Positions 36,467 through 63,044 of a DNA stretch of 64,000 bases are shown here, piece by piece. Position numbers and translations under genes: made by a program. The stretch comes from Bradyrhizobium sp. Ash2021 (GTDB lineage Bacteria; Pseudomonadota; Alphaproteobacteria; Rhizobiales; Xanthobacteraceae), in the NCBI RefSeq assembly GCF_031202265.1, contig NZ_CP100604.1:1116001-1180000 (forward strand). Reading direction: 5' to 3'. Under the pieces are notes generated by a model. That model was not told where the DNA came from. It saw nothing but the letters and a program-made list of their open reading frames with translations, and searched no databases. Within the stretch, counting starts at the first letter, position 1; each line of letters starts with the position of its first letter.

Positions 36467-36982
36467 CTATGCCGCGCGGCGGCGCGGCTTTGCCTTGGTA
36501 GACTTCTGGGCGGCTAGTCTCTCGGCGGCAGAGCGCGCGCCGGGACCTGGATGAGTATGAACCTCCTTGGGCAGAAGCGGCTCACGGCATTCGGAGCAAA
36601 TCATCACGGGATCAAACATCTTGCCGCAATTGCGATGTTCATGCAGCAAGGGCCGTCCGCGTTCGTCGACCATGTGGGTATCGCCCCAGTGCACCAACGC
36701 CATCATGACCGGATACAGGTCCAGGCCTTTTTGGGTCAGGATGTACTCATGCCGTTTGGGCGATTCCTGATATGGAATGCGACGCAGTACGCCCTGCCGG
36801 ACCAGCTTCTTAAGCCGTTCGGCAAGCAGATGGCGCGTGATCCCGAGCGCCGACTGAAATCCCTCGAACCGTCGCGTGCGCAGAAAGCACTCCCGCAAGA
36901 TCAGAAGGGTCCAGCGATCGCCTATCACACCGATGGTGCGGGCCAGTGAACACGGCTCTTCCTCCAGGGCGTCCCACTTCAT
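36467..36982 (-). CDS. HxlR family transcriptional regulator (first)
   Basis: 171 residues with an HxlR winged helix (CSLARTIGVIGDRWTLLILRE, and RRFEGFQSALGITRHLLAERL). HxlR proteins are small dimeric regulators with effectors such as aldehydes or quinones. The C-terminal tail has a Cys pair (NCGKMFDPVMICSECREPLL), which could bind metal or sense redox. ATG 36982 starts near the conserved domain; the frame is open to 37078 but that part covers the promoter. A GTTC-N7-GAAC-type site overlaps its own promoter, suggesting autoregulation. It diverges from the isomerase/CoA-transferase genes. Confidence 0.9.
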   Translation of the reverse strand: MKWDALEEEPCSLARTIGVIGDRWTLLILRECFLRTRRFEGFQSALGITRHLLAERLKKLVRQGVLRRIPYQESPKRHEYILTQKGLDLYPVMMALVHWGDTHMVDERGRPLLHEHRNCGKMFDPVMICSECREPLLPKEVHTHPGPGARSAAERLAAQKSTKAKPRRRAA

Positions 36983-37049
36983 TCCTGCTCTCCAGTCATC
37001 ACGACACTTCAATCCGCTCGAATCGACCAGGGAACCGAGCCGTCGCGTC

Positions 37050-37078
37050 ATTCTAAATAGGAACTTAAGGCGAAACAA
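37050..37078 (-). promoter_or_regulatory. hxlR promoter with operator copy
   Basis: On the minus strand TTGTTT (37078-37073), a 17-base spacer and TAGAAT (37055-37050) form a promoter. The palindrome ATTCTAAATAGGAAC at 37050-37064 covers its -10 side. It is one of four related copies in this region and suggests autorepression. Confidence 0.5.
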
Positions 37079-37130
37079 CTGCCGAAGGAACCCGTACTTA
37101 CCGAAATAACCTAACCGACACCGGCACTAA

Positions 37131-37159
37131 TTGACAGTTCGTTTTTAGAACTATATGAA
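37131..37159 (+). promoter_or_regulatory. Promoter of the isomerase gene with embedded operator
   Basis: A perfect TTGACA (37131-37136), a 17-base spacer and TATGAA (37154-37159). The palindrome GTTCGTTTTTAGAAC at 37137-37151 fills the spacer exactly. Binding there would block RNA polymerase, so repression by the divergent HxlR is the simplest reading. Confidence 0.6.
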
Positions 37160-37240
37160 CAATTGTCAGCCAAGGCACGGCTATTGGCCGTTGCGACTGA
37201 TCTCTGACCACATAACGCGTGCCCCCAGGAGAAGCCGGTG

Positions 37241-37876
37241 ATGAATCCCCCGAAGGTTGAATTCCAGTTCGATTTCGGAAGCCCGAATGCTTATCTGGCG
37301 GAGCTTGCCCTTCCGGGCATCGAACGGCGCACCGGAGTGAAGTTCGAATACGTTCCGGTGCTGCTCGGCGGGATCTACAAGGCGACCAACAATATGTCGC
37401 CCGCTGAGTCGCTTCGTGGGATCAAGAACAAGCCAGAATACCAAGCGCTGGAGACCCAGCGGTTTATTCATCGCCATAACATCACAAGGTTCCGGCTAAA
37501 TCCGTTTTTCCCGGTCAATACGCTGATGCTCATGCGGGGCGCCGTCGCGGCTCAATTCGAGGACACGTTCGAACCCTACTTCCGCGCCGCCTACCACCAC
37601 ATGTGGGAAGAACCCAAGAAGATGGACGACCTCGAGGTGTTCCGCAGCGCCTTTGCCTCGTCAGGCATCGACATCGAGAGGCTGATTGCGCGCGCGCAGC
37701 AGGATGACGTGAAGAAGCGGCTGATCGATTTGACGACCGACGCGGTCAACCGCGGCGCATTTGGTTCGCCAACCTTCTTTGTCGGAAAGGAAATGTTCTT
37801 CGGCAAGGATCAGCTCCGCGACGTCGAGGAATCGATTGTCGAACAGACTAGCCGCACAATGTCCAAGACGGCTTGA
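37241..37876 (+). CDS. 2-hydroxychromene-2-carboxylate isomerase-like protein (DsbA/GST-kappa fold)
   Basis: 211 residues. VEFQFDFGSPNAYLAELALP near the start and GSPTFFVGKEMFFGKDQL at the end are hallmarks of HCCA isomerase, a glutathione-dependent enzyme of naphthalene-type ring degradation; the conserved Ser in FGSPNAY is the glutathione-activating residue. ATG 37241 has AGGAG about six bases upstream; GTG 37238 is adjacent. First gene behind the operator-containing promoter, followed by a CoA-transferase after about 100 bases and near a GST gene, consistent with glutathione-dependent steps in an aromatic or alicyclic pathway. Confidence 0.87.
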   Translation: MNPPKVEFQFDFGSPNAYLAELALPGIERRTGVKFEYVPVLLGGIYKATNNMSPAESLRGIKNKPEYQALETQRFIHRHNITRFRLNPFFPVNTLMLMRGAVAAQFEDTFEPYFRAAYHHMWEEPKKMDDLEVFRSAFASSGIDIERLIARAQQDDVKKRLIDLTTDAVNRGAFGSPTFFVGKEMFFGKDQLRDVEESIVEQTSRTMSKTA

Positions 37877-37945
37877 AATCACGGCCTGCAGCCCGCAACT
37901 GGCGGGTGGATATCGGCGGGTCGAACGACAAGAATAGATTATCGT

Positions 37946-37963
37946 CGTTCCCGGTCCGGAACG
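37946..37963. repeat. 18-bp inverted repeat before the CoA-transferase gene
   Basis: CGTTCC and GGAACG flank a six-base centre (CGGTCC), 19 bases upstream of the ATG. The half-sites resemble the GTTC/GAAC operator but the spacing is one base longer and the centre is GC-rich, so it may instead be an mRNA hairpin at the ribosome site. Confidence 0.35.
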
Positions 37964-37981
37964 TAGTGAAGGGAGAATACC

Positions 37982-39181
37982 ATGCCCGGCCCACTCAACG
38001 GCGTTCGCGTGCTCGATTTGACCGGCGTGGTCTCGGGGCCGTACGCGACCATGTTTCTGGCAGACCAGGGCGCCGACGTGCTCAAGATCGAGCCGATCGG
38101 TGGCGACATCACTCGCCGCAGCCGCGCTACCATCGACAAGGGCGGCGAGTTCTCCGCGCTGTTCATCTCTTCCAATCGCGGCAAGCGTTCGCTCTCGATT
38201 GACGTCAAGAGCGCGGTCGGCCGCGAAGTCCTTGCCAGGCTGGTCGCGCAGGCCGACGCGCTGGTGCAGAATTTCCGGCCCGGCACCATGGAGCGGCTCG
38301 GCCTCGGCGTCGACGAGCTGCGCCAGCGCCACCCGCGCCTCATCTATGTCTCGATCAGCGGCGTCGGCGACACCGGGCCTTACGTCAAGAAGCGGGTTTA
38401 CGATCCGATCATCCAGGGGCTGTCGGGCTTTGCCGACATCCAGTCGCAGCCGGTGACCAACCGTCCGCAAATGATCCGCACCATCGTCTGCGACAAGACC
38501 ACCGCCGTCTTTACTGCGCAGGCGGTGTCGTCGGCGCTGTATGCGCGCGAGAAGACCGGGCAGGGCGATCACATCCAGGTCGCAATGCTGGACACCATGA
38601 TCTCGTACCTTTGGCCGGAAGGCATGATGCAGTACACCGTGGTCGGCACCGAAGCCGCGGCGGCGGATCCCAACGATCGTCCCGACCTCGTGTTCAAGAC
38701 CAGCGACGGTTACATCACTGCCGGCACCATCTCGGATTCCGAATGGCAGGGCTTCTGCAGGGCGTCGGGCGATCCGGAGCTTGCCAAGGATCCCCGATTT
38801 GCAACGCCGTCGGCGCGTTCGGTCAATGCCACCGCCCGCATCAACAAGATGGGGGAATATATTGCGCAGCATACAACAGCCGAATGGCTCGAACGGCTCG
38901 ATGCCGCCGACGTTCCCTGTGCGCCGATCCTGCGCCGCGGCGAGATCATTCACAATGAACAGGTTGTCGCGCGCGACATCATCGCGGAGTTCGATCAGCC
39001 GATGGTCGGACGGGTGCGGCAGCCGAAGCCGGCGGCCCGGTTCGAGATCAATGAAGCTGTCATTGGCGGCCCGGCTCCCCGCGTCGGCGAGCACACACGC
39101 GATGTGTTGCACGATCTCGGTTACGACGACGTCGCCATCGACAAGATGGTCAGGGAAAAGTCGGTCCGGGTCGCGGTTTAA
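37982..39181 (+). CDS. CaiB/BaiF (class III) CoA-transferase
   Basis: 399 residues. The N-terminus PLNGVRVLDLTGVVSGPYAT and GADVLKIEPIGGD are typical; the catalytic Asp is present in VAMLDTMISYL near residue 205. The enzyme moves CoA between carboxylic acids and activates a substrate without ATP. It lies downstream of the isomerase gene on the same strand and likely shares its promoter. Substrate not evident. Confidence 0.9.
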   Translation: MPGPLNGVRVLDLTGVVSGPYATMFLADQGADVLKIEPIGGDITRRSRATIDKGGEFSALFISSNRGKRSLSIDVKSAVGREVLARLVAQADALVQNFRPGTMERLGLGVDELRQRHPRLIYVSISGVGDTGPYVKKRVYDPIIQGLSGFADIQSQPVTNRPQMIRTIVCDKTTAVFTAQAVSSALYAREKTGQGDHIQVAMLDTMISYLWPEGMMQYTVVGTEAAAADPNDRPDLVFKTSDGYITAGTISDSEWQGFCRASGDPELAKDPRFATPSARSVNATARINKMGEYIAQHTTAEWLERLDAADVPCAPILRRGEIIHNEQVVARDIIAEFDQPMVGRVRQPKPAARFEINEAVIGGPAPRVGEHTRDVLHDLGYDDVAIDKMVREKSVRVAV

Positions 39182-39186
39182 TCCGG

Positions 39187-39864
39187 TCAGGCTTTTTGTT
39201 GCACTGGAACGATCGGCGCCAGCGGGACGTTGGCAGCCTTGGCGAGCTGATAGGCTTGTCGCGCCTGGATGCGTTCGAGATAGGGCTGCACGTTGTCGCA
39301 AATGCCGACGCCGTAGGCGATCGCCCAATCCAGGCACGTGGTCAGCAGGATGTCGGCGCTGGTGAATCTGTCGCCCATCAGGAACTGGCGGCCATCGGAC
39401 AGCGCGACCTCGACGTGATGGAGCTGTTCGCGAAAATACTCGCCGGCCTTGGCGACGACTTCGGGTGCAACGCCATAGATCGGACCGAGCGCGTCGGCCC
39501 GATGCCGGCGCATGACGTAAAGGCTGGTGGAGTCCAGTTCCGCGACGACAAAGAAGCACCATTCCAGCCAGGCCGCATATTCCCGCGGGCTTTCCGGAAT
39601 CAGCGTGCGCTCCGGCGTCGAATACATTCGCGAGAGGTAAGCCACGATCGCGGCGCTCTCCCCAATGCAGAAATCGCCGTCCTGCAACAGAGGAACCTTC
39701 TGACGGGGATTGAGCCTGGTATATTCGGCGGTCTTGGTCTCGCCGGTCCGCGGGCCTATCGGTTTCGTCTTGTACGACAAGCCCAGCTCATGCATGGCCC
39801 AGTGGGGCCGAATGGTCCGGCTCGTTCCGACACCCCACAATGTCAGTTCCGGTGTTGCTCCCAT
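39187..39864 (-). CDS. Glutathione S-transferase family protein
   Basis: 225 residues. Thioredoxin-like N-terminal domain with LNPRQKVPLLQDGDFCIGESAAI (the cis-Pro and the glutathione-binding ES motif near residue 68), followed by an all-helical C-terminal domain. The likely catalytic Ser is in VGTSRTIRPHW near residue 15. ATG 39864 overlaps the SDR stop by one base (TGATG), so the two genes are coupled. GTG 39870 is an in-frame alternative. It may supply thiol chemistry alongside the HCCA-isomerase-like protein. Confidence 0.88.
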   Translation of the reverse strand: MGATPELTLWGVGTSRTIRPHWAMHELGLSYKTKPIGPRTGETKTAEYTRLNPRQKVPLLQDGDFCIGESAAIVAYLSRMYSTPERTLIPESPREYAAWLEWCFFVVAELDSTSLYVMRRHRADALGPIYGVAPEVVAKAGEYFREQLHHVEVALSDGRQFLMGDRFTSADILLTTCLDWAIAYGVGICDNVQPYLERIQARQAYQLAKAANVPLAPIVPVQQKA

Positions 39865-40607
39865 CACCACTTCTCCACGGACGGGCGGAGATCGAGTTCA
39901 TGGGTCCAGCCGTCCCGGGTTTGTTGATGTGCGAACCAATAGGCTTCGGCGATCGAGGACGTCTTGGTCAGGCTGTCGGGGGGGATTTCGCTGGCCTCGA
40001 TGCCTCTGGCCGCCTTCATTCGCTGGTGGATGGCTTCGCTGTCCACGCCGGCGTCGATCAGGAGATGAACGACGTGGATATTTTTCGGCCCGAGTTCGCG
40101 GGCCATCGCCTGGGCCACCGCACGAAGTCCGAATTTTGCGGATGAGAATGCCGCGAAACCCTGGCCGCCGCGGACGCTGGCGGTGGCTCCGGTAAAGAAG
40201 ATGGTGCCGCGACCGCGCGGAAGCATGTAGCGCGCAGCCTCGCGGCCGACCAGAAACCCGCCGTAACAGGCAAGTTCCCAGGCCTTGAAGAACAGCTTCT
40301 CGGTGGTATCCAACAGCGGCTTGTTGACATTCGATCCAGCGTTGAAGAGGCAGACCTCGATCGATCCGAGGTTCGTTTCGACGTCGGCAAACAGCTTTTG
40401 GACCTCGACCTCCTGACGGGCATCGACGCTGAACGCGTGCGCCTCGAGGCCCGCGGCCCTCAGTTCGTCGACCAATTCCTGGGATTTGGCGGCGTCGCGC
40501 CTGCAGATGCAGACCGTATAGCCGCCCTCGGCAAAGCGACGCGCGACGGCCGCGCCGATGGCGTCGCCCGCGCCGACCAATATTGCCACGCCGCGACCTT
40601 CCGCCAT
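39864..40607 (-). CDS. SDR family protein lacking the catalytic Tyr (copy 1)
   Basis: 247 residues with a Rossmann fold: GAGDAIGAAVARRFAEGG at the N-terminus and NAG in LFNAGSNVN near residue 90. The active-site Ser is in TASVRGG, but the YxxxK motif reads FSSAK, so Phe replaces the catalytic Tyr. The same change occurs in the relative at 42441, so it is a subfamily trait and not random decay. A reductase role is therefore uncertain; a structural role or different chemistry is possible. A GTTC-N7-GTAC operator copy lies 16 bases upstream of the ATG. Confidence 0.85.
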   Translation of the reverse strand: MAEGRGVAILVGAGDAIGAAVARRFAEGGYTVCICRRDAAKSQELVDELRAAGLEAHAFSVDARQEVEVQKLFADVETNLGSIEVCLFNAGSNVNKPLLDTTEKLFFKAWELACYGGFLVGREAARYMLPRGRGTIFFTGATASVRGGQGFAAFSSAKFGLRAVAQAMARELGPKNIHVVHLLIDAGVDSEAIHQRMKAARGIEASEIPPDSLTKTSSIAEAYWFAHQQTRDGWTHELDLRPSVEKW

Positions 40608-40622
40608 GCTCGCTCCCTGTAA

Positions 40623-40637
40623 GTTCTTATTTAGTAC
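40623..40637. promoter_or_regulatory. Operator copy upstream of the SDR/GST pair
   Basis: GTTCTTATTTAGTAC matches 13 of 15 positions when compared with the reverse complement of the copy at 40762. It lies directly before the ribosome site (CAGGGAG) of the SDR gene. No clear -35/-10 pair was identified on the minus strand. Confidence 0.45.
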
Positions 40638-40754
40638 TAAAAAGATATCGAGCCTTGGGGCCGTTGTAAATGGAATTTGTCCATTTTTTGCCTGTCTTCA
40701 TATCATTCATGCCGGTTCCTCACTATCGGTTGAACGCCTCGGCCAGAATAGTGA

Positions 40755-40783
40755 TTGACGAGTTCTAAAAAAGAACGTTAATT
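40755..40783 (+). promoter_or_regulatory. Promoter of the ligase operon with embedded operator
   Basis: TTGACG (40755-40760), a 17-base spacer and TTAATT (40778-40783). The palindrome GTTCTAAAAAAGAAC (40762-40776) lies in the spacer, the same arrangement as at 37131-37159. Confidence 0.6.
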
Positions 40784-40837
40784 GCGCCGACGACAAGGCC
40801 GCGTGAAAAGCGGCGCAAATGACTCGGGAGGTAGGCC

Positions 40838-42394
40838 GTGGCGAAACAGTCCGAAGCGATCAATCTTGCCGAGATCGCCGCCGAGATTCCGGACCGCATT
40901 CATCAGGTTGCTGATGGGCATGTTTCCAGTCATCCCGAACGCGTTGCACTGGTCGAGGAGGGAGTTTCGTGGACTTATCGCGAACTTGATCGTTCGGTCG
41001 CAGATATCGCCGCCGGTCTTAAATCGCTCGGCGTCAGAGCCGGCGATCGGATGGTCATTGTGAGCGAGAGCTGCATCGCGCTCGCTGCGTTGCTGCTGGC
41101 GGCGAGCCGCATCGATGTCTGGGCGATTGTCGCCAATCCGAGATTGTCCCCGCGCGAACTTGACCAGATCCGCGATCACAGCGGCGCACGGCGGATGTTT
41201 TTCACCCCGGAAATTTCGAAGGAAGCGGCGGCTCATGCGCAGCGCCATGGCGCGGAGAGATGGCGACTTGGGGCTTTAAAGGCGATCGGTGTCGGCCCAT
41301 TGAACGAAGATACTGTCGCTGAACCGGTCGAGAAAGACCCGGCGAAACAGGTCGCCGTGCTGATTTACACATCGGGAACCACGGGTACGCCAAAGGGCGT
41401 GATGCTCACCCACGAAAACCTGCTCATCAGTGCGAAGACCACGGCGCATTTCCGCCGAATGGAAGCACGCGACAAGGTATATGTCGTGCTGCCGATCTCG
41501 CACATTGTCGGAATTTCGTTGTTGATCATGACCCTGATGGTCGGCGGCACCGTCCGCCTGGTCAGCAAATACGATCCCGCAGCGCTCGCCAAGGCGATCG
41601 CCGAGGAGGGAATCACCATTCTCAACGGTGTGCCTGCGACCTATCAGCGCCTGCTGGAATACAAGGCGGTGGCAGGTCTAAAGCAGTTGGATCGCGGATC
41701 GTTGCGGCTGATCGCGGTGGCCGGTGCTTCGCTCGATCTCGATTTGAAGTCGCGCGTCGAACACGAGTTCGGTCTGCCGCTGTCAAACGGTTACGGCATC
41801 ACCGAATGCTCGCCCGGAATATCGGGCGTGCGTTTCGATGCGCCACGCGACGATCAGGCGGTCGGGACGCTGCTGCCGGGCGTCGAGGCCCGGATCAGGA
41901 CGGTCGATGGCATACCGGTGGCAAGAGGCGAAATCGGCGAACTGCACGTCCGCGGGCCGAACGTCATGCGCGGCTACTACCGCGCGCCTGATCTGACCGC
42001 GAAGGCGATCGATAGCGAGGGCTGGTTCAATACCGGCGATCTCGCGCGCTTCGAGGGCGATTGCCTCTATATTGTCGGGCGCACCAAGGAAATGATCATC
42101 CGCTCGGGCTTCAACGTCTATCCGGCGGAGGTCGAAGCCGTCCTCAGTTCGCATGAAGCGGTGGTTCAGTGCGCCGTGGTCGGTCGCGCCGTCGAAGGCA
42201 ACGAAGAGGTCGTTGCCTTCGTGCAGCTGATGCCGGGCTCACTTGTGAAGCCGGCTGATCTGATGGCTTTCATCAATCCGCAACTCACTTCGTACAAGCG
42301 GCCGTCGGAGATCGTCGTGCGCGATGCCTTGCCGGCGACCTCGACCGGCAAGATCCTCAAGCACAAGCTCGCGGCATCATTGCGCGGCGCGTAG
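40838..42394 (+). CDS. AMP-dependent acyl-CoA ligase
   Basis: 518 residues. The AMP-binding motif reads LIYTSGTTGTPKGVMLTH near residues 174-191; NGYGITECSPG, the hinge GRTKEMIIRSGFNVYP and the catalytic Lys in STGKILKHKL near the end are all present. It activates a carboxylic acid via acyl-AMP to its CoA thioester. GTG 40838 follows GGGAGG. First gene of an apparently co-transcribed set running to 47759 and controlled by an operator-bearing promoter. Substrate class (aromatic, alicyclic or dicarboxylic) cannot be fixed. Confidence 0.9.
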   Translation: MAKQSEAINLAEIAAEIPDRIHQVADGHVSSHPERVALVEEGVSWTYRELDRSVADIAAGLKSLGVRAGDRMVIVSESCIALAALLLAASRIDVWAIVANPRLSPRELDQIRDHSGARRMFFTPEISKEAAAHAQRHGAERWRLGALKAIGVGPLNEDTVAEPVEKDPAKQVAVLIYTSGTTGTPKGVMLTHENLLISAKTTAHFRRMEARDKVYVVLPISHIVGISLLIMTLMVGGTVRLVSKYDPAALAKAIAEEGITILNGVPATYQRLLEYKAVAGLKQLDRGSLRLIAVAGASLDLDLKSRVEHEFGLPLSNGYGITECSPGISGVRFDAPRDDQAVGTLLPGVEARIRTVDGIPVARGEIGELHVRGPNVMRGYYRAPDLTAKAIDSEGWFNTGDLARFEGDCLYIVGRTKEMIIRSGFNVYPAEVEAVLSSHEAVVQCAVVGRAVEGNEEVVAFVQLMPGSLVKPADLMAFINPQLTSYKRPSEIVVRDALPATSTGKILKHKLAASLRGA

Positions 42395-42440
42395 TCCAGA
42401 TATCGGAAATCAGAGAGTTGACCTAACCGGGAGAATACCC

Positions 42441-43178
42441 TTGCAGAAGAGAAACGCAACCGTGGCCGTGATCGGTGCCGGGGACTACATCGGCGGCGAG
42501 ATTGCAAAGAAATTCGCATCGCAGGGCTTCACGATCTTTGCCGGCCGTCGCGATGGGGCCAAGCTGGAACCGCTCGTGAAGGATATCCGCGAAGCGGGTG
42601 GCGAAATCCACTCCCGCTCGCTGGATGCACGCAAGGAAGACGAGATCATCTCGTTCCTCGGCGATGCCGACAAACACGCCCCACTTGAGGTGTGCATTTT
42701 CAACATCGGCGCCAACGTCAACTTCCCGATCGTCGAGACCACGGAGCGGGTGTTTCGAAAAGTCTGGGAAATGGCCTGCTATTCCGGCTTTCTCGCCGGC
42801 CGCGAAGCGGCGCGCCTGATGCTGCCCCGGGGCAAGGGCAATATCTTCTTCACCGGCGCGACCGCGAGCCTGCGCGGCGGCAGCGGCTATGCGGCCTTCG
42901 CCAGCGCGAAGTTTGGTTTGCGGGCCGTTGCCCAGGCGACGGCGCGCGAGTTGGGTCCGAAAAACATCCACGTCGCCCATCTCATCATCGACTCGGGCGT
43001 CGACACCGAATGGGTGCGCCAGCGGCGGATCGAAGCGCTGGGGCCGGGCGCCCTCGATAACCCGGATCTCCTGATGCCGCCGTCGTCGGTTGCGGAGTCC
43101 TATTGGCAGCTCTACCAGCAGCCGCGCAGCGCCTGGACGTTCGAGTTGGAAATACGCCCGTTCGGCGAGAAGTGGTAA
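42441..43178 (+). CDS. SDR family protein lacking the catalytic Tyr (copy 2)
   Basis: 245 residues. Rossmann motif GAGDYIGGEIAKKFASQG, FNIGANVN near residue 85, Ser in TASLRGG, and FASAK where YxxxK is expected: Phe replaces Tyr, as in copy 1. Starts at TTG 42441 with CGGGAGA upstream; no ATG is available. It is a close relative of copy 1 but lies in a different operon with the same operator, so both copies may form a hetero-complex or act at two steps. The C-terminus FELEIRPFGEKW is shared in pattern with copy 1 (LDLRPSVEKW). Confidence 0.85.
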   Translation: MQKRNATVAVIGAGDYIGGEIAKKFASQGFTIFAGRRDGAKLEPLVKDIREAGGEIHSRSLDARKEDEIISFLGDADKHAPLEVCIFNIGANVNFPIVETTERVFRKVWEMACYSGFLAGREAARLMLPRGKGNIFFTGATASLRGGSGYAAFASAKFGLRAVAQATARELGPKNIHVAHLIIDSGVDTEWVRQRRIEALGPGALDNPDLLMPPSSVAESYWQLYQQPRSAWTFELEIRPFGEKW

Positions 43179-43190
43179 CGGGAGCTGCTC

Positions 43191-44372
43191 GTGGAGCTGA
43201 ACCTTTCCAGCGAGGACGCCGCGTTTCGCGACGAGGTGCGGGCCTTCATCGCGGCGAACTATCCGCCGGAAATGCGCGTTGCCAATCCGGAGACCGACCT
43301 GACCAAGGAGCAGATGCTGCTGTGGCACCGGATCCTGCACAAAAAAGGATGGATCGCGCCGCTTTGGCCGAAGGAATATGGCGGGCCGGGCTGGTCGATC
43401 ACGCAACGTTTTGTATTCGAACAGGAGACCTCCCGTGCCGGAACGCTGCCGCCGTTGGCGTTCAGCGTCACCATGGTCGGCCCGGTGATTTACACGTTCG
43501 GGAGCGACGCGCAGAAGCAGAAATTTCTGCCGCGGATTCTCTCTGGTGAAGACTGGTGGTGCCAGGGCTATTCGGAGCCGGGCTCCGGCTCCGACCTCGC
43601 CACTGTCCGCACCAAGGCGGTGCGGGATGGTGATCACTACATCGTCAACGGCCACAAGACCTGGACGACACTGGCACAGCACGCCGACTGGATTTTCTGT
43701 CTGGTCCGCACTGATCCGGCGGCCAAGCCGCAATCCGGCATTTCGTTCCTCCTGATCGACATGAAGTCGCCGGGCGTCACCGTGCGTCCGATCATCACCA
43801 TCGACGGATCGCACGAGGTCAACGACGTGTTTCTCGAGGACGTGCGCGTTCCGGTCGAGAATCTGATCGGTGAGGAAAACAAGGGTTGGACCTACGCAAA
43901 ATTCCTGCTCGGAAATGAGCGTACCAGCATGGCCGGCATCGGCCGTTCGACGCGTTACCTCAACAAGCTGAAACAGATCGTGAAGGCCGAGATTCGAGAC
44001 GGCGATCCCGCGCATCTCGAATTTATCAGGGATATCGCCCGCGTCGAGCTCGACGTGCTGGCTCTGGAGGCGACCGAGCTGCGCGTCGTGGCGCAGATGG
44101 CGCGCGGCATCGATCCGGGACCGGCGGCGTCGCTGTTCAAGATCCGCGGCACCGAGATCTTCCAGAACATCACCGAGCTGACCCACCGCGCGATCGGCAA
44201 TTATGGCCTGGCGATCCGTGAACATCCGGTCAGCGCCAATCATTTCATGCCGGGGCCGGACTACGGCCACACCGCGTCGGAAAAATACCTGAACTCGCGC
44301 AAGCTCAGCATCTACGGCGGGTCGAACGAGATTCAGCGCAACATCATCGCAAAAGCGGTGCTCGGCCTCTAG
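43191..44372 (+). CDS. Acyl-CoA dehydrogenase, large-subunit type (PimC-like)
   Basis: 393-residue FAD enzyme. Motifs: WCQGYSEPGSGSDLATVRT near residue 122, ERTSMAGIGRS, and the end YGGSNEIQRNII. Medium-chain acyl-CoA dehydrogenases carry Glu in YEGT; here it is Gly, a pattern seen in two-subunit enzymes such as pimeloyl-CoA dehydrogenase. GTG 43191 has GGGAG upstream. It is followed by a smaller, divergent dehydrogenase, so the pair probably forms a heteromer that desaturates a ring- or dicarboxyl-CoA. Confidence 0.88.
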   Translation: MELNLSSEDAAFRDEVRAFIAANYPPEMRVANPETDLTKEQMLLWHRILHKKGWIAPLWPKEYGGPGWSITQRFVFEQETSRAGTLPPLAFSVTMVGPVIYTFGSDAQKQKFLPRILSGEDWWCQGYSEPGSGSDLATVRTKAVRDGDHYIVNGHKTWTTLAQHADWIFCLVRTDPAAKPQSGISFLLIDMKSPGVTVRPIITIDGSHEVNDVFLEDVRVPVENLIGEENKGWTYAKFLLGNERTSMAGIGRSTRYLNKLKQIVKAEIRDGDPAHLEFIRDIARVELDVLALEATELRVVAQMARGIDPGPAASLFKIRGTEIFQNITELTHRAIGNYGLAIREHPVSANHFMPGPDYGHTASEKYLNSRKLSIYGGSNEIQRNIIAKAVLGL

Positions 44373-44395: not shown

Positions 44396-45526
44396 ATGGA
44401 TATCCAGTTCACGGAAGAGCAGGAATTACTGCGATCCAGCGTCCAGCGCCTGTTGCGCGACCAGTATGATTTCGAGGCGCGCCGCAAGATCGTCGCGAGC
44501 GAAGAGGGTTTCGGCCGCAAACAATGGGAGTCGTTTGCCGCACTCGGCCTGTTCGCCGCGCCGTTCTCCGAGGACGTCGGCGGTCTCGGCGGCGGGCCGC
44601 TGTCGACCATGATCATCATGCAGGAGTTCGGCCGTCACCTCGTGGTCGAGCCGTTTGTCGAGACGGTGGTGCTCGCTGGCGGCCTGCTCGAGCACACGGG
44701 ATCCGAGGAGCAGAAGCAGGGTTTTATCCCCGACATCATTGCCGGCATGAAGACCTGGGCGCTGGCCTGGAGTGAGAAGGGGTCGCGCTTCGATCTCGCC
44801 AACGTCGCGACCACGGCGCGGCGCGAGGGCAAGGACTACGTCCTGAGCGGCGAAAAGACCGCGGTGGTCGCCGCGCCCTGGGCGGACTATTTGATCGTCT
44901 CCGCCCGTACCTCCGGTCATCGCCACGATCGCAGCGGCGTCAGCCTGTTCGTGGTCGATCGCCGTGCCGCGAATCTCGACCTGCAGAGCTTCAAGACTAT
45001 CGACGGCCGCCGCGCTGCCGAAATCAGCCTGCGCGACGTCAGGGGGCAGTTGCTCGGCAACAAGGGCGAGGGCGTGGCCGCGCTGGAAGCCTGCCGTGAC
45101 CGCGCCGTCGGCGCGCTCAGTGCGGAAGCGGTCGGCGCGATGGCCGAACTGAACTCCGCGACGCTGGAATACTCCAAGACCAGAAAACAGTTCGGCTCAA
45201 CGATCGGCTCGTTCCAGGTGCTGCAGCACCGGATGGTCGATATGTTCATCGCGCATCAGGAAGCGCTCTCGCTGATGCAGCACCTCAGCCTCAGCCTCGG
45301 TGCGAATGAGGCCGGCCTATCCCGGCTCGCGTCCGGTGCCAAGTCGAAGATCGGCTATGCCGGCAGGTTCATCGCCGACCAGGCGGTGCAGCTCCACGGC
45401 GGCATGGGCATGACCGACGAATTGAACGTCGGCCATTACTTCAAACGGATTTCCTCCATCAACATCCAGTTCGGCGATCCCGCGTTTCATTTGCTGCGGT
45501 TTGCGCAGCTCCACGCGGCCGCTTAA
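44396..45526 (+). CDS. Acyl-CoA dehydrogenase, small-subunit type (PimD-like)
   Basis: 376 residues. Family features: FTEEQELLRSSVQRLLRDQY at the start, the mid domain WALAWSEKGSRFD in place of the canonical TEPxxGSD loop, KTRKQFGSTIGSFQVLQHRM near residue 262, and LHGGMGMTDELNVGHYFKR. The poorly kept FAD loop suggests that it serves as the partner of the upstream protein. Twenty-three bases separate them. Confidence 0.87.
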   Translation: MDIQFTEEQELLRSSVQRLLRDQYDFEARRKIVASEEGFGRKQWESFAALGLFAAPFSEDVGGLGGGPLSTMIIMQEFGRHLVVEPFVETVVLAGGLLEHTGSEEQKQGFIPDIIAGMKTWALAWSEKGSRFDLANVATTARREGKDYVLSGEKTAVVAAPWADYLIVSARTSGHRHDRSGVSLFVVDRRAANLDLQSFKTIDGRRAAEISLRDVRGQLLGNKGEGVAALEACRDRAVGALSAEAVGAMAELNSATLEYSKTRKQFGSTIGSFQVLQHRMVDMFIAHQEALSLMQHLSLSLGANEAGLSRLASGAKSKIGYAGRFIADQAVQLHGGMGMTDELNVGHYFKRISSINIQFGDPAFHLLRFAQLHAAA

Positions 45527-45541: not shown

Positions 45542-46729
45542 ATGACAACCGAAGCAGTGATCGTTTCCACCGCCCGCACCGGCGTCGGCAAGGCATATCG
45601 CGGCGCGCTCAACAACACCGACGGCCCGACCCTGGCCGGCCATGTGATGGCCGAAGCGGTGAAGCGCGCCGGGATTGCGCCCGGCGAAGTCGAGGACGTG
45701 GTGATGGGCTGCGCCATGCAGCAGGGCACCATGGTGATGAATGTCGCTCGCAAGGGCGCGATCCGCGCCGGCCTTCCGGTCACGGTCGCCGGCACCACCA
45801 TCGACCGCCAGTGCGCGTCCGGACTGCAGGCGATCGCGGTCGCGGCGCGCTCGGTGATGCTCGATGGCGTCGAGATCGCGATCGGCGGCGGCATCGAGTC
45901 GATCAGCCTGGTGCAGAACGAGCACATGAACCGGTTTCACGCCGTCGACGACGAGCTGATGGCGATGAAGCCCGAGATCTACATGTCGATGCTGGAGACC
46001 GCCGAAGTCGTCGCCGAGCGCTACGGAATCGGCCGCGACCGGCAGGACGAGTACTCGCTCGAGTGCCAGCGCCGCGTCGGAGCCGCGCTGCAGGGCGGCC
46101 GCTTCAATGACGAGATCGTACCGATCACGACCAAGATGGCCGTCGTCAACAAGGACACCAGGGAAGTTACCTATCAGCAGGTGACGCTGGCAAAGGACGA
46201 GGGACCGCGCCCCGACACGACAGCCGATGGTCTTTCGAAGATCAAGCCGGTGTTCGAGGGCAAGACCATCAGCGCCGGCAATGCCAGCCAGCTTTCCGAC
46301 GGCGCCTCGGCTTGCGTGATCATGAGCGACAAGATCGCCTCGCAGAAGGGCCTGAAGCCGCTGGGCATCTTCCGCGGCTTCGTCGCCGCCGGCGTCGAGC
46401 CGGACGAGATGGGCGTCGGCCCGGTCGCCGCGATCCCGCGGCTCCTGAAGCGGCACGGCCTGAAGATCGACGATATAGACCTCTGGGAGCTCAACGAGGC
46501 CTATGCGGTGCAGGTGATCTATTGCCGCGACAAGCTCGGCATCGATCCTGACAAGCTCAACGTCAATGGCGGCTCAATCGCGATCGGCCATCCCTATGGC
46601 ATGACCGGCGCGCGGTTGACCGGCCACCTCCTGATCGAGGGCCGGCGGCGCAAGGCGAAATACGGCGTGGTGACCATGTGCATTGGTGGCGGCATGGGCG
46701 CGGCGGGTTTGTTTGAAATCGTCCACTGA
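45542..46729 (+). CDS. Acetyl-CoA acyltransferase (thiolase)
   Basis: 395 residues. The acyl-accepting Cys is in [12 protein letters not shown] near residue 91; the second active-site block is [20 protein letters not shown] and the final Cys is in [13 protein letters not shown]. It cleaves 3-ketoacyl-CoA with CoA. It closes the beta-oxidation set (ligase, dehydrogenases, thiolase). A hydratase is missing from this operon; crotonase-family genes occur at 52.3, 54.2 and 60.3 kb. Confidence 0.92.
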
Positions 46730-46751: not shown

Positions 46752-47759
46752 GTGAAGACAGCAATCACTGAACTGTTCGGGATCCAGCATCCGATCATCC
46801 AGGGCGGCATGCATTATGTCGGCTTTGCCGAACTCGCGGCCGCAGTGTCGAATGCCGGCGGCCTTGGCATCATCACCGGCCTGACCCAGAAGACGCCGGA
46901 GCTGCTGGCCAAGGAAATCGCGCGCTGCCGCGACATGACCGACAAGCCGTTCGGCGTGAACCTGACCTTCCTGCCGAGCTTCACCGCGCCGCCCTATCCG
47001 GAATATATCGCCGCGATCAAGGAAGGTGGCGTCAAGGCGGTGGAAACCGCGGGCCGCAGCCCAGAGCAGTACATGCCGGCGTTGAAGGCCGCCGGCATCA
47101 AAGTGATCCACAAATGCACCTCGGTTCGGCATTCGCTGAAAGCCGAGAAGATCGGCTGCGACGCCGTCAGTGTCGACGGCTTCGAGTGCGGCGGCCATCC
47201 CGGCGAGGACGATATCCCGAACATGATCCTGCTGCCGCGCGCAGCAGATGAACTGAAGATTCCGTTCGTCGCCTCGGGCGGCATGGCGGATGCGCGCAGC
47301 CTGGTCGCGGCGCTGTCGATGGGCGCCGCCGGCATGAACATGGGCACACGCTTTATTGCAACCAAGGAAGCGCCGGTCCACCCCAACGTTAAAAAGGCGC
47401 TGGTCGAGGCCTCCGAGCTCGACACGGTGCTGGTGATGCGCGCGCTGCGCAATACCGAGCGCGTGCTCAAGAACACGGGCGTCGATCACCTCCTCGAGAT
47501 CGAGCGCGAAAAGGGCGCGAGTCTCAAGATCCATGACATCCACGAGCAGGTCGCGGGCGTCTATCCCAAGGTGATGATCGACGGCGAGACGGATGCCGGC
47601 GCCTGGAGCTGCGGCATGGTGGTCGGGCTGATCCACGACATCCCGACGGTCAGGGAACTGATCGATCGCATTATGGCGGACGCTGAGCGGCTGATCCGCG
47701 AACGCCTGGTCGGCTTTCTCGACGGCGTTGAACAGTCGAAGGCGATGAAAGTCGCATGA
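46752..47759 (+). CDS. Nitronate monooxygenase / 2-nitropropane dioxygenase-like flavoprotein
   Basis: 335-residue TIM-barrel FMN protein. Motifs: HPIIQGGMHYVG at the start, FGVNLTFLP near residue 70, DGFECGGHPGEDD with the conserved His near residue 155, and FVASGGMADARSL. GTG 46752 starts the normal N-terminus. Members of this family found inside acyl-CoA degradation operons are often not nitronate oxidases but act on unsaturated acyl-CoA or unknown substrates, so the name is provisional. Confidence 0.86.
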   Translation: MKTAITELFGIQHPIIQGGMHYVGFAELAAAVSNAGGLGIITGLTQKTPELLAKEIARCRDMTDKPFGVNLTFLPSFTAPPYPEYIAAIKEGGVKAVETAGRSPEQYMPALKAAGIKVIHKCTSVRHSLKAEKIGCDAVSVDGFECGGHPGEDDIPNMILLPRAADELKIPFVASGGMADARSLVAALSMGAAGMNMGTRFIATKEAPVHPNVKKALVEASELDTVLVMRALRNTERVLKNTGVDHLLEIEREKGASLKIHDIHEQVAGVYPKVMIDGETDAGAWSCGMVVGLIHDIPTVRELIDRIMADAERLIRERLVGFLDGVEQSKAMKVA

Positions 47760-47842: not shown

Positions 47843-49048
47843 ATGAGTATCAAATTCGGCATCGCAGCCGCGTGTGTGGCTGCATCGCTGCTCGCATCGC
47901 CCGCTCTGGCTGCCGACGAACCTGGCGTGACCAAGACGGAGATCAAGATCGGCGGGATATTCCCTTTCAGTGGTCCTGCGTCCTCGATCGGCCTGGTTGG
48001 CAAGGGCGTGTTGGCCTATGTGCAGTCGATCAACGATCGTGGCGGCATAAACGGCCGCAAGATAAATTACGTCGCGATGGACGATGCCTACAGTCCGCCG
48101 AAAGCGGTAGAGCACGCCCGCAAGCTGGTCGAAAGTGACGAGGTATCATTCATCTTCGGCCAACTCGGCACTCCCGGCAATTCGGCGACGGCGAAGTATC
48201 TCAAGGGCAAGGGCGTTCCCTCGATCGCGATCGTCAGTGGCTCCAGCAAATTCACCGACATAGCCGAATATCCGCTGACGACGACCGGTCTGGTCAGCTA
48301 CCAGACTGAGGGAAGAATTTACGCCAAGTTCCTCGACAAGGCATTGCCCGGAGCAAAATACGCGATTCTCTTCCAGAACGACGACCTCGGTAAGGACTAC
48401 GTCAGCGCCTTCAAATCGTTCTTGAAGGGAGAGTTCGAAAAGCGGGTTGTCACCGCAGCATATGAGGTGACCGAACCGACCATAGATTCCCAGGTCGTCA
48501 ATCTCAAGAGCTCGGGCGCCGAGGCGCTGTTCATTGCCGGCACGCCGAAATTTGCCGCGCAGGCAATCCGCAAGGCGGCCGAGATCGGCTGGAAGGCCAA
48601 GATAATCATCAACTTTCCATCGGGGTCGATCGGCGGCACGTTGAAACCTGCCGGACTGGAGAATTCCGTCGGCGTCATCGTCGGTACCATCAACAAGGAC
48701 CCGACCGATTCAAGGTGGAACGACGATGAAGGCGTGCAGGGTTACAAGGCGTTCTTTGGCAAGTACCTGCCGGGAGCGGACTTTGAGAACACCAGCTATC
48801 TCACCGGCTATATGGAGGGCATGATTCTCGAGCGGATACTCAAGCAGTGCGGGGATGATCTTTCGCGAAAAAATATCCTGACACAGGCAAAGTCGCTGAG
48901 TCACGTGGTGCTTCCGACAGCGTTTCCAGGAATCGAGGTGAATACCGGCGAATCCAGCAACATGATCTGGAGCCAGATGCAGCTACAGCGGTGGAGTGGC
49001 AGCGGCTGGGAGCCGTTCGGCGGGATTTTGGACGCAAGTTCCGAATGA
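47843..49048 (+). CDS. Orphan branched-chain amino acid-type binding protein
   Basis: 401 residues with a signal peptide (SIKFGIAAACVAASLLASPALA). Mature part begins DEPGVTKTEIKIGGIFPFSGPASS. Similar to the ABC binding proteins for aromatic acids in rhizobia. No permease or ATPase lies nearby, so it must use another transporter. Good ribosome site (CGGGAGAGAGG). It is 84 bases downstream of the nitronate-monooxygenase-like gene. Confidence 0.9.
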   Translation: MSIKFGIAAACVAASLLASPALAADEPGVTKTEIKIGGIFPFSGPASSIGLVGKGVLAYVQSINDRGGINGRKINYVAMDDAYSPPKAVEHARKLVESDEVSFIFGQLGTPGNSATAKYLKGKGVPSIAIVSGSSKFTDIAEYPLTTTGLVSYQTEGRIYAKFLDKALPGAKYAILFQNDDLGKDYVSAFKSFLKGEFEKRVVTAAYEVTEPTIDSQVVNLKSSGAEALFIAGTPKFAAQAIRKAAEIGWKAKIIINFPSGSIGGTLKPAGLENSVGVIVGTINKDPTDSRWNDDEGVQGYKAFFGKYLPGADFENTSYLTGYMEGMILERILKQCGDDLSRKNILTQAKSLSHVVLPTAFPGIEVNTGESSNMIWSQMQLQRWSGSGWEPFGGILDASSE

Positions 49049-49121
49049 CGCATCAGGGGGATGGCGCCATGGAATAAAGGACGAAACCGCTTCTCGCGAA
49101 TGCCATGAATGGAGAACTAGC

Positions 49122-50291
49122 ATGACAAAAGTCGGCTTTCATCAATATCCGCCGATGGATCAGGTGATCTTCGGCAAGCCAGCGGGCCAGGCTTTGCGCG
49201 AGGAGGCCGAACGGCGCGATGCCAAGCGCGTCTTCCTCATTGTCAGCAGAACGCTGAACACGCAGACCGATGAGATCGAAAAGATCCGCAAGGCGCTGGG
49301 TAGCAGATATGCCGGCACCTTCGACGGCGTCCCGCAACATACGACGCGAGCGTCGGCGGTGGAGGCAACCGCGCACGCCGCAGAAGCTAAAGCGGATTTG
49401 ACCGTCGCCGTGGGAGGCGGATCCGTCGTCGATGCGGCCAAGATCGTCTTGATGTGCCTTGAACACAATATCACCGATGAATCCGGCCTCGATGGATTCG
49501 AACTGGTCTCGACGCCCGATGGTCCGCGGCCAGGTCCATTTCGCGCTCCGAAGGTGAGGATGATCGCGATCCCCAGCACACTCTCGGGTGGAGAGTATAA
49601 CTCTGGAACTCTCGTTACGGACTCGCGCAGGAAGTTGAAGCAAATATTCAGCCATCCATTGATGATGCCGCTGTCGATCATCCTGGATCCGGAAATTACG
49701 AGGCACACCCCGGCGACTTTGTGGCTCGGGTCAGGCACGCGCGCGATGGATCACGGGATCGAAGCGGTTTGCTCTCCGAGGGGCAATCCGTTGGTGGAAA
49801 GTGTGTGCCTGCGAGGTTTGCGATACCTGTACGACGGCCTATTGGCCACCAAAGAAAACCCGGACGATTTGGAAGCACGACAGTTTTGCCAGCTCGGCTC
49901 CTGGATGTCCGCCTTCGGACTACAATGCCGCGTTCCGATGGGGGCCAGTCACGCGATCGGACACGTGCTGGGCGGCACCTGCGATGTTCCGCATTATCTG
50001 TGTACGGCGGTGATGATGCCGAGCGTGCTGAAATACAATCAGTCCGTGACGGATGAGGCCCAAAGGAAGATTGCCGAAGCGTGGTGCGCGCCGGACGCCA
50101 AGGCCAGCGACGTTTTCTTCCAGTTCATCGGTCGATTGGGGTTACCCGGCCATCTTTCGGAGGTTGGTGTGACCAAGGAGAAGTTTGAACTGATCGGTCG
50201 CAATGCGATGCTTTCGATCTTCACCAGGGCGAACCCACGGGTCATCAAGGGTCCGGAGGATATCGTCGAGATTCTTCAACTTGCCGCATAG
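49122..50291 (+). CDS. Iron-containing alcohol dehydrogenase / maleylacetate reductase-like
   Basis: 389 residues. NAD-binding loop AVGGGSVVDAAKI near residues 93-105; metal-site histidines in RAMDHGIEAVCS and GASHAIGHVLGG, with the second Asp in the middle domain. Longer than typical maleylacetate reductases (about 350). ATG 49122 is used; the frame is open upstream within the previous gene end. It may reduce an aldehyde or maleylacetate-like compound. Confidence 0.87.
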   Translation: MTKVGFHQYPPMDQVIFGKPAGQALREEAERRDAKRVFLIVSRTLNTQTDEIEKIRKALGSRYAGTFDGVPQHTTRASAVEATAHAAEAKADLTVAVGGGSVVDAAKIVLMCLEHNITDESGLDGFELVSTPDGPRPGPFRAPKVRMIAIPSTLSGGEYNSGTLVTDSRRKLKQIFSHPLMMPLSIILDPEITRHTPATLWLGSGTRAMDHGIEAVCSPRGNPLVESVCLRGLRYLYDGLLATKENPDDLEARQFCQLGSWMSAFGLQCRVPMGASHAIGHVLGGTCDVPHYLCTAVMMPSVLKYNQSVTDEAQRKIAEAWCAPDAKASDVFFQFIGRLGLPGHLSEVGVTKEKFELIGRNAMLSIFTRANPRVIKGPEDIVEILQLAA

Positions 50292-50377
50292 CGGCCGTTG
50301 CGATGCCAGGGGCCAGACACGCAAACCCCTGGGCAATCAACGAACAGCATAGATCGTCGGACAGGAGCACGCGCCGC

Positions 50378-59640: not shown

Positions 59641-60132
59641 ATGAAGTCAAAGAGTTTTGATGGGATGGCGTGCTCGATCGCCGGCGTCATGGACGCGATC
59701 GGCGACCGTTGGGCCGTACTGATTCTGCGCGACCTGTCGCTCGGGCTGAGCAGGTACGAGGACCTGCGCCGGTCAACGGGAGTAACCAACGCAACCCTGT
59801 CCGACCGGTTGAAGCACCTTGAGGACAGCGAATTGATCGAGCGGCGCCGGTACCAGACCAATCCCGAGCGATATGAATACGTTCTGACCGCGAAGGGCCG
59901 GGACACCATCCTCGTGATGCAGGCGCTGTTGCAGGTGGGAGACAAGTGGGCGGTTTCCGGAAACGCGGGGCCTCCACTCAAATTTGTGGATCGAAAAACC
60001 GGACACACGGTGAAGCTTGCAATGGTCGACAACGAGACCGGGCAACGCGTCGGAAAGCAGGATTTGCTGCCGCAGGCAGGTCCGGGAGCGGACGAACTGG
60101 TCCGCTGGCGTTTGACGCACTTTCGGAAATAG
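59641..60132 (+). CDS. HxlR family transcriptional regulator (second)
   Basis: 163 residues. HxlR helix-turn-helix CSIAGVMDAIGDRWAVLILRDLSLG and LSRYEDLRRSTGVTNATLSDRLKHLE near residues 11-61. The C-terminal part PLKFVDRKTGHTVKLAMVDNETG is a small ligand/dimer extension. Starts at ATG 59641. It diverges from the hydroxylase operon and lies upstream of the hydratase/CoA-transferase operon, with a strong 29-bp palindrome downstream of it. Confidence 0.92.
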   Translation: MKSKSFDGMACSIAGVMDAIGDRWAVLILRDLSLGLSRYEDLRRSTGVTNATLSDRLKHLEDSELIERRRYQTNPERYEYVLTAKGRDTILVMQALLQVGDKWAVSGNAGPPLKFVDRKTGHTVKLAMVDNETGQRVGKQDLLPQAGPGADELVRWRLTHFRK

Positions 60133-62489: not shown

Positions 62490-63044
62490 GTGAAGCGCTC
62501 CGGTTCCTCCAACAAGGAATGCTCCATCGCCCGTGCCATGGAGGTGGTCGGCGACCGCTGGTCGATCCTGCTGCTGCGGGAAGCCTATTATGGGACCAGG
62601 CGGTTCGACGAGTTTCAATACTATCTTGGCGTTGCGCCGAACATTCTCAGCGCGCGGCTGAAGAAGTTCGTTGATCTCGGCATGATGACGCGCGTGCCGT
62701 TGCCGGAGCATGGCGGGCGTTACGAATATGTCTTGACCAAAAAGGGCCGCGATTTTTTTCCGACCTACCTGGCACTTAAAAAGTGGGGCGATGACTGGCT
62801 TGCCGAGCCGGCAGGGCCGCAGGTGGTTTTCAAGGATCGCAGCAGCGGACGGCAAATCGAATATCCCACCTTGCTGTCAGCGCGCGGCAAGCCGTTGCAG
62901 CTCGAAGACGTCGAAATTGTCGCGGGCTCTGGCGCCGTGCCTTTCAACCGGAAGCGATTCGGCGGTCAACTCCCGCGCGCAAAGGTCAATCCGGAACGTG
63001 CCAGTCTAGTTCTGCGCAAATCCGTAGCCGATAAGGACAAATAA
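62490..63044 (+). CDS. HxlR family transcriptional regulator (third)
   Basis: 184 residues. HxlR winged helix CSIARAMEVVGDRWSILLLREA, then RRFDEFQYYLGVAPNILSARLKKF. A C-terminal extension (KDRSSGRQIEYPTLLSARGK) is longer than in the second HxlR. GTG 62490 is the only nearby start. Follows the CaiB-like gene by about 115 bases. Three HxlR genes within 26 kb suggest a family expansion tied to these operons. Confidence 0.9.
   Translation: MKRSGSSNKECSIARAMEVVGDRWSILLLREAYYGTRRFDEFQYYLGVAPNILSARLKKFVDLGMMTRVPLPEHGGRYEYVLTKKGRDFFPTYLALKKWGDDWLAEPAGPQVVFKDRSSGRQIEYPTLLSARGKPLQLEDVEIVAGSGAVPFNRKRFGGQLPRAKVNPERASLVLRKSVADKDK

Follow-up and report, generated by a model that had tools for sequence, protein, structure and literature searches.

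Regulators of the class to which YodB of Bacillus subtilis belongs are known as MarR/DUF24 proteins, DUF24 being the HxlR family, and their hallmark is a conserved N-terminal cysteine, which is present in YodB as well as in the protein described here. According to PMC8063818, YodB recognizes TACT-N7-AGTA, an operator with a 4-7-4 geometry, and PMC6212828 describes CatR of the same organism as a repressor from the MarR/DUF24 group that acts on a catabolic operon, the promoter region of which holds two boxes. Here, we analyze a stretch of 64,000 nucleotides (nt) from Bradyrhizobium sp. Ash2021 (the window: bases 1116001 to 1180000 of contig 1 of a 9.7 Mb genome in two contigs), in which an HxlR protein found in the Bradyrhizobium group very probably represses both hxlR itself and an adjacent pathway of organic-acid breakdown via a palindrome in the respective promoters. 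The protein belongs to the same family as YodB, whose chain 5hs7 it matches with E 5.9e-8, and its predicted operator shares with the YodB operator two half-sites of 4 base pairs (bp) that flank a 7-bp gap. With a probability of about 0.83, we read the locus as an autoregulated HxlR repressor of a regulon for coenzyme A (CoA)-dependent catabolism, with operators that are predicted to be strong at the two main operons and weak at hxlR and at the divergent gene of a short-chain dehydrogenase (SDR1). The regulator and its candidate promoter elements are as follows (window positions):

36467 to 36982, minus strand: HxlR-family regulator, 171 residues from a conserved ATG (MKWD...); Pfam PF01638 at 83.3 bits (cut-off, 20.8)
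37050 to 37064, minus strand: O2, candidate weak operator GTTCCTATTTAGAAT, overlapping the hxlR −10 box TAGAAT; matrix score 12.3
37131 to 37136, plus strand: −35 box TTGACA of the DsbA/CaiB promoter; TTGAC 1 nt 5′ of the operator in 67/68 DsbA promoters
37137 to 37151, plus strand: O1, candidate strong operator GTTCGTTTTTAGAAC, exact GTTC-N7-GAAC in the −35/−10 spacer of the DsbA/CaiB promoter; matrix score 23.3
40623 to 40637, minus strand: O3, candidate weak operator, GTACTAAATAAGAAC as read on the minus strand, where transcription of SDR1 and a glutathione S-transferase (GST) probably starts
40755 to 40760, plus strand: −35 box TTGACG of the ligase promoter; TTGAC 2 nt 5′ of the operator in 37/37 ligase promoters
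40762 to 40776, plus strand: O4, candidate strong operator GTTCTAAAAAAGAAC, exact GTTC-N7-GAAC in the −35/−10 spacer of the ligase operon

A preliminary description of this DNA had proposed four equal copies of GTTC-N7-GAAC at these positions. Their coordinates, 15-bp length and A/T-rich centers are as given there, and two of the copies are exact and strong (O1 and O4); the other two are degenerate, as O2 reads ATTCTAAATAGGAAC and O3 reads GTTCTTATTTAGTAC, each with one half-site mismatch. With an A/T center and at most one mismatch, the window matches are just the four sites, compared to 0.35 expected and none of 100 shuffled windows reaching four; shuffled windows, reversed patterns and 40 column-permuted matrices served as chance controls. 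A symmetric matrix, made from the GTTC-N7-GAAC sites of 80 HxlR loci and scanned over 1.52 Mb, gives O4, O1 and O3 the three highest scores of the window, with O4 at the top (25.9). Genome-wide, the oriented consensus GTTCNTWTTTAGAAC is matched exactly at two positions, which both belong to the window, and with up to one mismatch at six, four of them in the window, counts that are partly circular because this consensus was derived from the four sites themselves; at three mismatches, the window holds five matches against 2.05 expected, a number that 6 of 100 shuffles reach. An inverted-repeat search with a minimum arm of six bases is uninformative here, as it also missed the four known sites. 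Elsewhere in the same genome, GTTCATTTTTTGAAC stands shortly before an open reading frame (ORF) resembling the major facilitator superfamily (L009, G000:C1:4880783), without TTGAC, and is probably background; near-matches at 4936847 and C2:122767, which by eye have no adjoining TTGAC, were likewise taken as background.

The comparison with the operators of HxlR orthologues that the preliminary description had suggested bears the palindrome out. For this purpose, 80 HxlR loci were used, the best 80 of 181 found, picked by HxlR similarity and with genes labeled from the window's proteins only. An exact GTTC-N7-GAAC is located within 400 bp upstream of hxlR in 80/80 of these loci, which constitutes independent support, and the gap is specific: gaps of 3–6 and 8–12 occur there in 0/80 loci and a gap of 13 in 1/80. 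In a second set of 30 same-genus loci, also picked by HxlR similarity, with the window's own locus included and the genomes partly overlapping those of the first set, a site with at most two mismatches to the consensus precedes hxlR in every case. The pooled consensus over the relatives is GTTCTAWWWTAGAAC. At a matrix score of at least 17, there are 208 matches in the 1.52 Mb, 80 of which are the training sites, versus a mean of 0.85 and a maximum of 7 for the permuted matrices, and none falls inside genes recognized with the window's proteins. The sites carry 1.66–1.94 bits per base, partly by choice since they were selected by score, and the −35 stretch, which was not selected on, carries 1.36–1.85 bits, compared to 0.19–0.43 bits in the flanking promoter DNA; at 37 ligase promoters, the O4-type site has 1.94 bits per base versus 0.33–0.43 in its flanks. 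Because the flanks have diverged while the site and the unselected −35 stretch are conserved, common ancestry alone is an insufficient explanation.

We then considered where the sites are located within promoters, counting the best site per promoter with a score of at least 17 and a recognized gene within 350 bp on one side, each promoter being labeled by its nearest recognized gene. TTGAC stands 1–2 bp before the GTTC of the best site in 175/176 promoters and on the other side in 0/208: It precedes the site in 67/68 promoters of the DsbA-family gene, 37/37 of the ligase, 43/43 of a substrate-binding protein (SBP), 27/27 of a second short-chain dehydrogenase (SDR2) and 1/1 of an Fe-alcohol dehydrogenase (Fe-ADH). 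A TA pair follows at +3/+4 after the site in 68/68 DsbA, 35/37 ligase, 43/43 SBP and at most 21/27 SDR2 promoters. With TTGAC ahead and the TA pair behind, the operator therefore fills the spacer between −35 and −10. The preliminary description had assigned this placement correctly to the sites at 37137 and 40762, which are preceded by TTGACA and TTGACG, and had rightly placed one site on the −10 box of hxlR, where the site at 37050 overlaps TAGAAT on the minus strand; its notion of one identical promoter layout holds for the DsbA/CaiB and ligase promoters but not for those of hxlR and SDR1/GST.

In the 75/80 relatives' loci having TAGAAT, to which the following counts refer, the hxlR promoter consists of TTGTTT (66–98% conserved per position), 17 bp and TAGAAT. 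Its operator is degenerate, commonly GTACCTATCTAGAAT, and the right half of the operator is the −10 box itself. Conservation is 98% at each of bases 1, 2, 4 and 5 (G, T, C, C), although they are not required by the −10 box, and base 3 is A in 81%. By sequence position, operators thus lie in the −35/−10 spacer or on a −10 box at the target genes and at the regulator's own gene, the arrangement of an autoregulated repressor, and because O2 has been kept degenerate, hxlR would be autoregulated more loosely than its targets. O3 fits neither the spacer nor the −10 layout; it starts 5 bp after the −10 box of what by eye is a plausible TTTACA/TATCTT promoter of SDR1. Among 52 loci for which the top-scoring site over the 90 bp preceding SDR1 was taken, the site is GTATCAAATAAGAAC in 16 and similar in the others; each base of its GAAC half is found in 51–52 of the 52 loci, the other half is mostly GTAT or GTAC, and 19/52 sites score at least 8, versus 1.75% of 400 random 90-bp windows. 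O1 and O2 are 74–78 bp apart in 61, 86–89 bp in 10 and 66 bp in 1 of the 75 loci, values that lie about one helical turn from each other; the exceptions are 112 and 181 bp, and one value of 18 was taken for a chance TAGAAT. Since the loci are related, this phasing is at most suggestive of cooperation between the two sites. The SDR1 and ligase sites are without clear phasing, with a spacing of 139 in the window and about 118–142 in relatives in which both sites score at least 8.

A further line of evidence is that the operator follows the genes. In rearranged relatives, it precedes whichever gene heads the unit, be it ligase/SDR1, HxlR/SDR2, HxlR/ligase or SBP, or Fe-ADH in BTAi1. For 30 of the 31 matching ligase loci, a strong site is located no more than 400 bp from the ligase in 14; in 13 of the remaining 16, DsbA immediately precedes the ligase and is itself preceded by the site, and the last three, whose ligases are 44–46% identical, have no site. 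In two loci (L181, L190), the operator precedes SDR2 and a nitronate monooxygenase (NMO), with no HxlR recognized within about 1.5 kb. In L168 (G022:C19:51749), the operator before SDR2-NMO faces an apparent truncated HxlR remnant with about 55 residues matched.

To complement the HxlR-picked loci, a search not biased by HxlR was made with TTGAC-N1-2-GTTC-N7-GAAC in 60 genomes, 36 of the same genus and 24 of other families; the totals per genome group given in this paragraph were added by hand from per-genome tables. This search returned 89 matches, compared to 9 for the reversed pattern. An HxlR ortholog was scored as present at E below 1e-80, which applies to 33/60 genomes, and the −35 box plus operator occurs in 33/33 genomes with and 2/27 without the ortholog. 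The latter comprise 0/3 of the same genus and 2/24 of the others, with one match each, both GC-centered. No more than two G/C are found in the center of 81/89 matches, all of which lie in the 33 ortholog-bearing genomes; the remaining eight include the two in genomes without the ortholog and one at 7.13 Mb of the Ash2021 genome. Without the −35 box, counts of the exact A/T-centered palindrome and its control are 115 versus 24 within the genus (36 genomes) and 11 versus 18 outside it (24 genomes from other families).

The preliminary description had also held that the palindrome joins some 10 kb of genes in one pathway. The regulon is probably larger than that, since the SBP operon, SDR2-NMO, Fe-ADH and an etfBA-like pair carry the operator elsewhere, the latter two in one genome each. 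The pair in question (L191, G034:C83 near 862363) consists of ORFs that by eye look like EtfB/EtfA and are preceded by TTGAC plus operator, suggesting that the regulon of this genome has come to include electron transfer for the dehydrogenases. Overall, the comparative evidence of conservation, placement and co-occurrence favors the self-regulated HxlR repressor with several target operons that had been proposed.

On this basis, the mechanism can be pictured as follows: An HxlR dimer would bind the 15-bp palindrome, whose half-sites are 11 bp apart. The assignment of HxlR as the binder relies on the YodB-like geometry and on its recurrence with the cluster, as no other regulator encoded in the window recurs with the cluster throughout the relatives' loci, and its presumed repressor role on the operators in the spacer, on the −10 box and at the start. 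At the promoters of DsbA/CaiB and of ligase/SDR2/dehydrogenase/thiolase/NMO, the operator lies directly behind the −35 box, so that bound HxlR would exclude sigma-70 RNA polymerase, and weaker copies would act on the hxlR −10 box and around the start of the divergent SDR1/GST promoter, with possible cooperation between O1 and O2. Release would be brought about by a pathway metabolite, perhaps an acyl-CoA, or by an electrophile. The regulated genes would provide CoA activation and β-oxidation-type breakdown of an acid together with glutathione-dependent side steps, and are encoded as follows (AMP, adenosine monophosphate; FMN, flavin mononucleotide; ABC, ATP-binding cassette):

37238 to 37876, plus strand: DsbA-family protein, like 2-hydroxychromene-2-carboxylate isomerase/kappa-GST; PF01323; best solved relative 2imd, E 4.1e-11
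37982 to 39181, plus strand: class III CoA-transferase (CaiB-like); PF02515, 360 bits
39187 to 39870, minus strand: glutathione S-transferase; PF02798 and others
39864 to 40607, minus strand: short-chain dehydrogenase SDR1; PF00106; best solved relative 3h7a
40838 to 42394, plus strand: AMP-forming acyl-CoA ligase; PF00501/PF13193; best solved relatives 8wev/8weu, E 1.5e-73
42324 to 43178, plus strand: short-chain dehydrogenase SDR2; PF00106; true start probably near 42435 (by eye)
43191 to 44372, plus strand: acyl-CoA dehydrogenase 1, PimC-like; TIGR03204, 490 of 624 bits, below the equivalog cut-off
44396 to 45526, plus strand: acyl-CoA dehydrogenase 2, PimD-like; TIGR03203, 364 of 653 bits, below the equivalog cut-off
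45542 to 46729, plus strand: thiolase; PF00108/PF02803; solved relative 8gqg
46752 to 47759, plus strand: NMO, nitronate monooxygenase/FMN enoyl-reductase family; PF03060; solved relatives 6e2a and 2gjl
47843 to 52204, plus strand: probable regulon extension with ABC substrate-binding protein (SBP), Fe-alcohol dehydrogenase and second acyl-CoA ligase; PF13458, PF00465, ligase by eye

These genes suggest CoA activation, oxidation by two dehydrogenases, SDR steps, thiolysis, CoA transfer, an FMN enzyme and an uptake protein. Glutathione is the cofactor of the family to which the isomerase-like protein belongs, and this protein and the GST are suggestive of glutathione-dependent side steps of the pathway. 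The protein families and solved relatives give the chemistry, not the substrate; because the scores stay below the PimC and PimD equivalog cut-offs, the latter is probably not that of the pimeloyl-CoA dehydrogenases. SDR2-NMO carries its own operator in relatives. The extension genes have no operator of their own within the window; in relatives, the SBP promoters with a site scoring at least 17 all have TTGAC in front (43/43), and the window copies of SBP, Fe-alcohol dehydrogenase and second ligase are probable members of the regulon.

The HxlR protein itself matches PF01638 over residues 20–105, which places it in the family; its scores remain below the NCBIfam cut-offs for RrpB (48.1 of 175 bits) and RrpA (32 of 185 bits). 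Bradyrhizobium erythrophlei GAS478 (L055) has the same protein with 100% identity, and an alignment of 32 sequences shows the M of MKWD in all of them. Residue numbers refer to a 172-residue translation and are thus one higher than those counted from the conserved Met. Cys12 is kept in 80/80 orthologs, as is a C-terminal set of H115, H117, C120, C130 and C133 (H-x-H-x2-C-x9-C-x2-C), which possibly represents a metal site, given its resemblance to one; in a second set of 32 sequences, the conservation of C133 is 90% or more, and Cys12 and the other Cys/His are invariant. An AlphaFold model based on 32 close sequences was poor (mean predicted local distance difference test score of 57.6) and was not used. 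The window contains two further HxlR-like genes, 59641–60132 and 62490–63044, whose products are 35% and 38% identical to the first HxlR and by eye lack the C-terminal His/Cys set. By eye, their neighbors include additional CoA-pathway and molybdenum-hydroxylase-like genes, and GTTC-N7-GAAC with up to one mismatch was not found upstream of either. In L073, both are located within 7 kb of the first HxlR. In other genomes, two tandem HxlR matches occur in single frames of about 330–379 residues, as would result from the fusion of an HxlR dimer into a single chain (G055:C2:78209-79087, G031:C1:2053747-2054643, G015:C1:7554416-7555306, G034:C83:695402-696292, G018:C20, G032:C53, G003:C33).

A broader scenario for this HxlR lineage appears improbable to us: It would make the protein a metal-ribbon sensor of a CoA-thioester or electrophile of the pathway that acts on same-face operator pairs, with a strong site looping to the poor hxlR site, and new promoters would have copied or captured the cassette of −35 box and operator, recruiting the electron-transfer flavoprotein in one genome.

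Turning to competing explanations, the conserved Cys12 (80/80) and the presence of the GST and of an isomerase-like protein from a glutathione-dependent family in the regulon would also suit a YodB/HypR-type thiol or electrophile sensor in control of a detoxification module instead of a catabolic pathway. This is conceivable but on the unlikely side, as the regulon consists mostly of a CoA ligase, acyl-CoA dehydrogenases, a thiolase, a CoA-transferase and an uptake binding protein; moreover, it would change only the signal and leave the operator map unaffected.

Alternatively, the palindrome might be bound by a different regulator encoded elsewhere, with HxlR being only a target. Were hxlR a mere target, a site in front of it would be no different, and some operators stand at genes without a recognized HxlR within about 1.5 kb. 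We nevertheless regard this as very unlikely, since the A/T-centered combination of −35 box and operator is confined to the 33/60 genomes holding an HxlR ortholog, the 4-7-4 geometry is the one described for the MarR/DUF24 protein YodB, and HxlR alone recurs with the cluster among the window's regulators, a comparison to which regulators absent from the window are invisible.

Operators in the spacer, on the −10 box or over the start occupy positions of steric repression. The idea that HxlR acts as an activator on these sites, like the protein that gave the family its name, must be measured against precisely these positions: Strong operators occupy the −35/−10 spacer of promoters whose −35 box is a good TTGAC, O2 lies on a −10 box and O3 over the probable start. 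With the PDB entries of HxlR naming a transcriptional activator, and PMC7835342 calling HxlR a positive formaldehyde regulator, activation has precedent in the family, and for the present locus we still consider it very unlikely indeed.

Several observations weigh against the autoregulated repressor and need to be set beside its support. Some concern the bare palindrome, for which the genome search proposed in the preliminary description yielded a chance-level result: Exact GTTC-N7-GAAC occurs 116 times genome-wide versus 79 for the reversed pattern and twice in the window versus 1.16 expected, and 27 versus 25.3 expected with one mismatch in the window, all of which is unremarkable and led us to reject the bare palindrome as the signal. 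In the Ash2021 genome, even the exact A/T-centered form is unenriched (4 versus 3 in the control), and GTTCNTWTTTAGAAC at two mismatches is without excess (20 versus 44 for the reversed control) and uninformative. Others concern the weak sites: O2 (12.3) ranks under a site at 43408 within a dehydrogenase gene (12.8), scores below 8 in many relatives and is in one half also explained by the −10 box; the SDR1 site scores below 8 in 33/52 loci; and weaker matches (8–13) also fall inside genes in the relatives' loci. Finally, the loci represent one ortholog group in related genomes, so that the counts are not independent events, the 80 loci were picked by HxlR, and the co-occurrence is compatible with another regulator traveling with the cluster. 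The possibility that A/T-rich promoters contain these sites by chance, as the chance-level counts of the bare palindrome and the 4 versus 3 count of its A/T-centered form would allow, is practically negligible in view of the 80/80 conservation, the spacing specificity, the 208 versus 0.85 matches and the 175/176 sites behind TTGAC, and for O1 and O4 conservation, spacing and TTGAC placement already refute it.

The predicted operator and the promoter cassette of TTGAC plus operator are present in 33/36 same-genus genomes searched, offer a way to find further genes of the pathway and provide a natural series in which one operator stays with its genes through rearrangements. Neither the GTTC half-site, this regulon and the genus-wide cassette nor any published operator of this HxlR group was found in the open-license literature searched, subscription journals being mostly outside the search. 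Among solved chains, the nearest to the window HxlR are 4gcv (E 8.3e-23) and 2f2e (PA1607; E 2.7e-21), the aligned part of 4gcv being without the C-terminal Cys motif. The pim operon contains a ligase and a thiolase, as the window cluster does; the dehydrogenase pair is related to PimC/PimD (TIGR03204/TIGR03203), with scores well under the equivalog cut-offs and a substrate that probably differs. The name-giving HxlR (7bzd, 7bze, 7bzg) shares the family, with E 7.1e-10 and 5.4e-10 over the winged-helix part; it is described as a formaldehyde-responsive activator, whereas the operators in the window are at repressor positions. The likeness to CatR concerns the family, the repression of a catabolic operon and the two boxes in the promoter region; both targets and organism differ. 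In contrast to YodB, the window HxlR has the half-site GTTC instead of TACT, CoA-dependent catabolic targets and a C-terminal extension with invariant His/Cys. In kind, the system is an already known one: an autoregulated HxlR/DUF24 repressor with a 4-7-4 operator.

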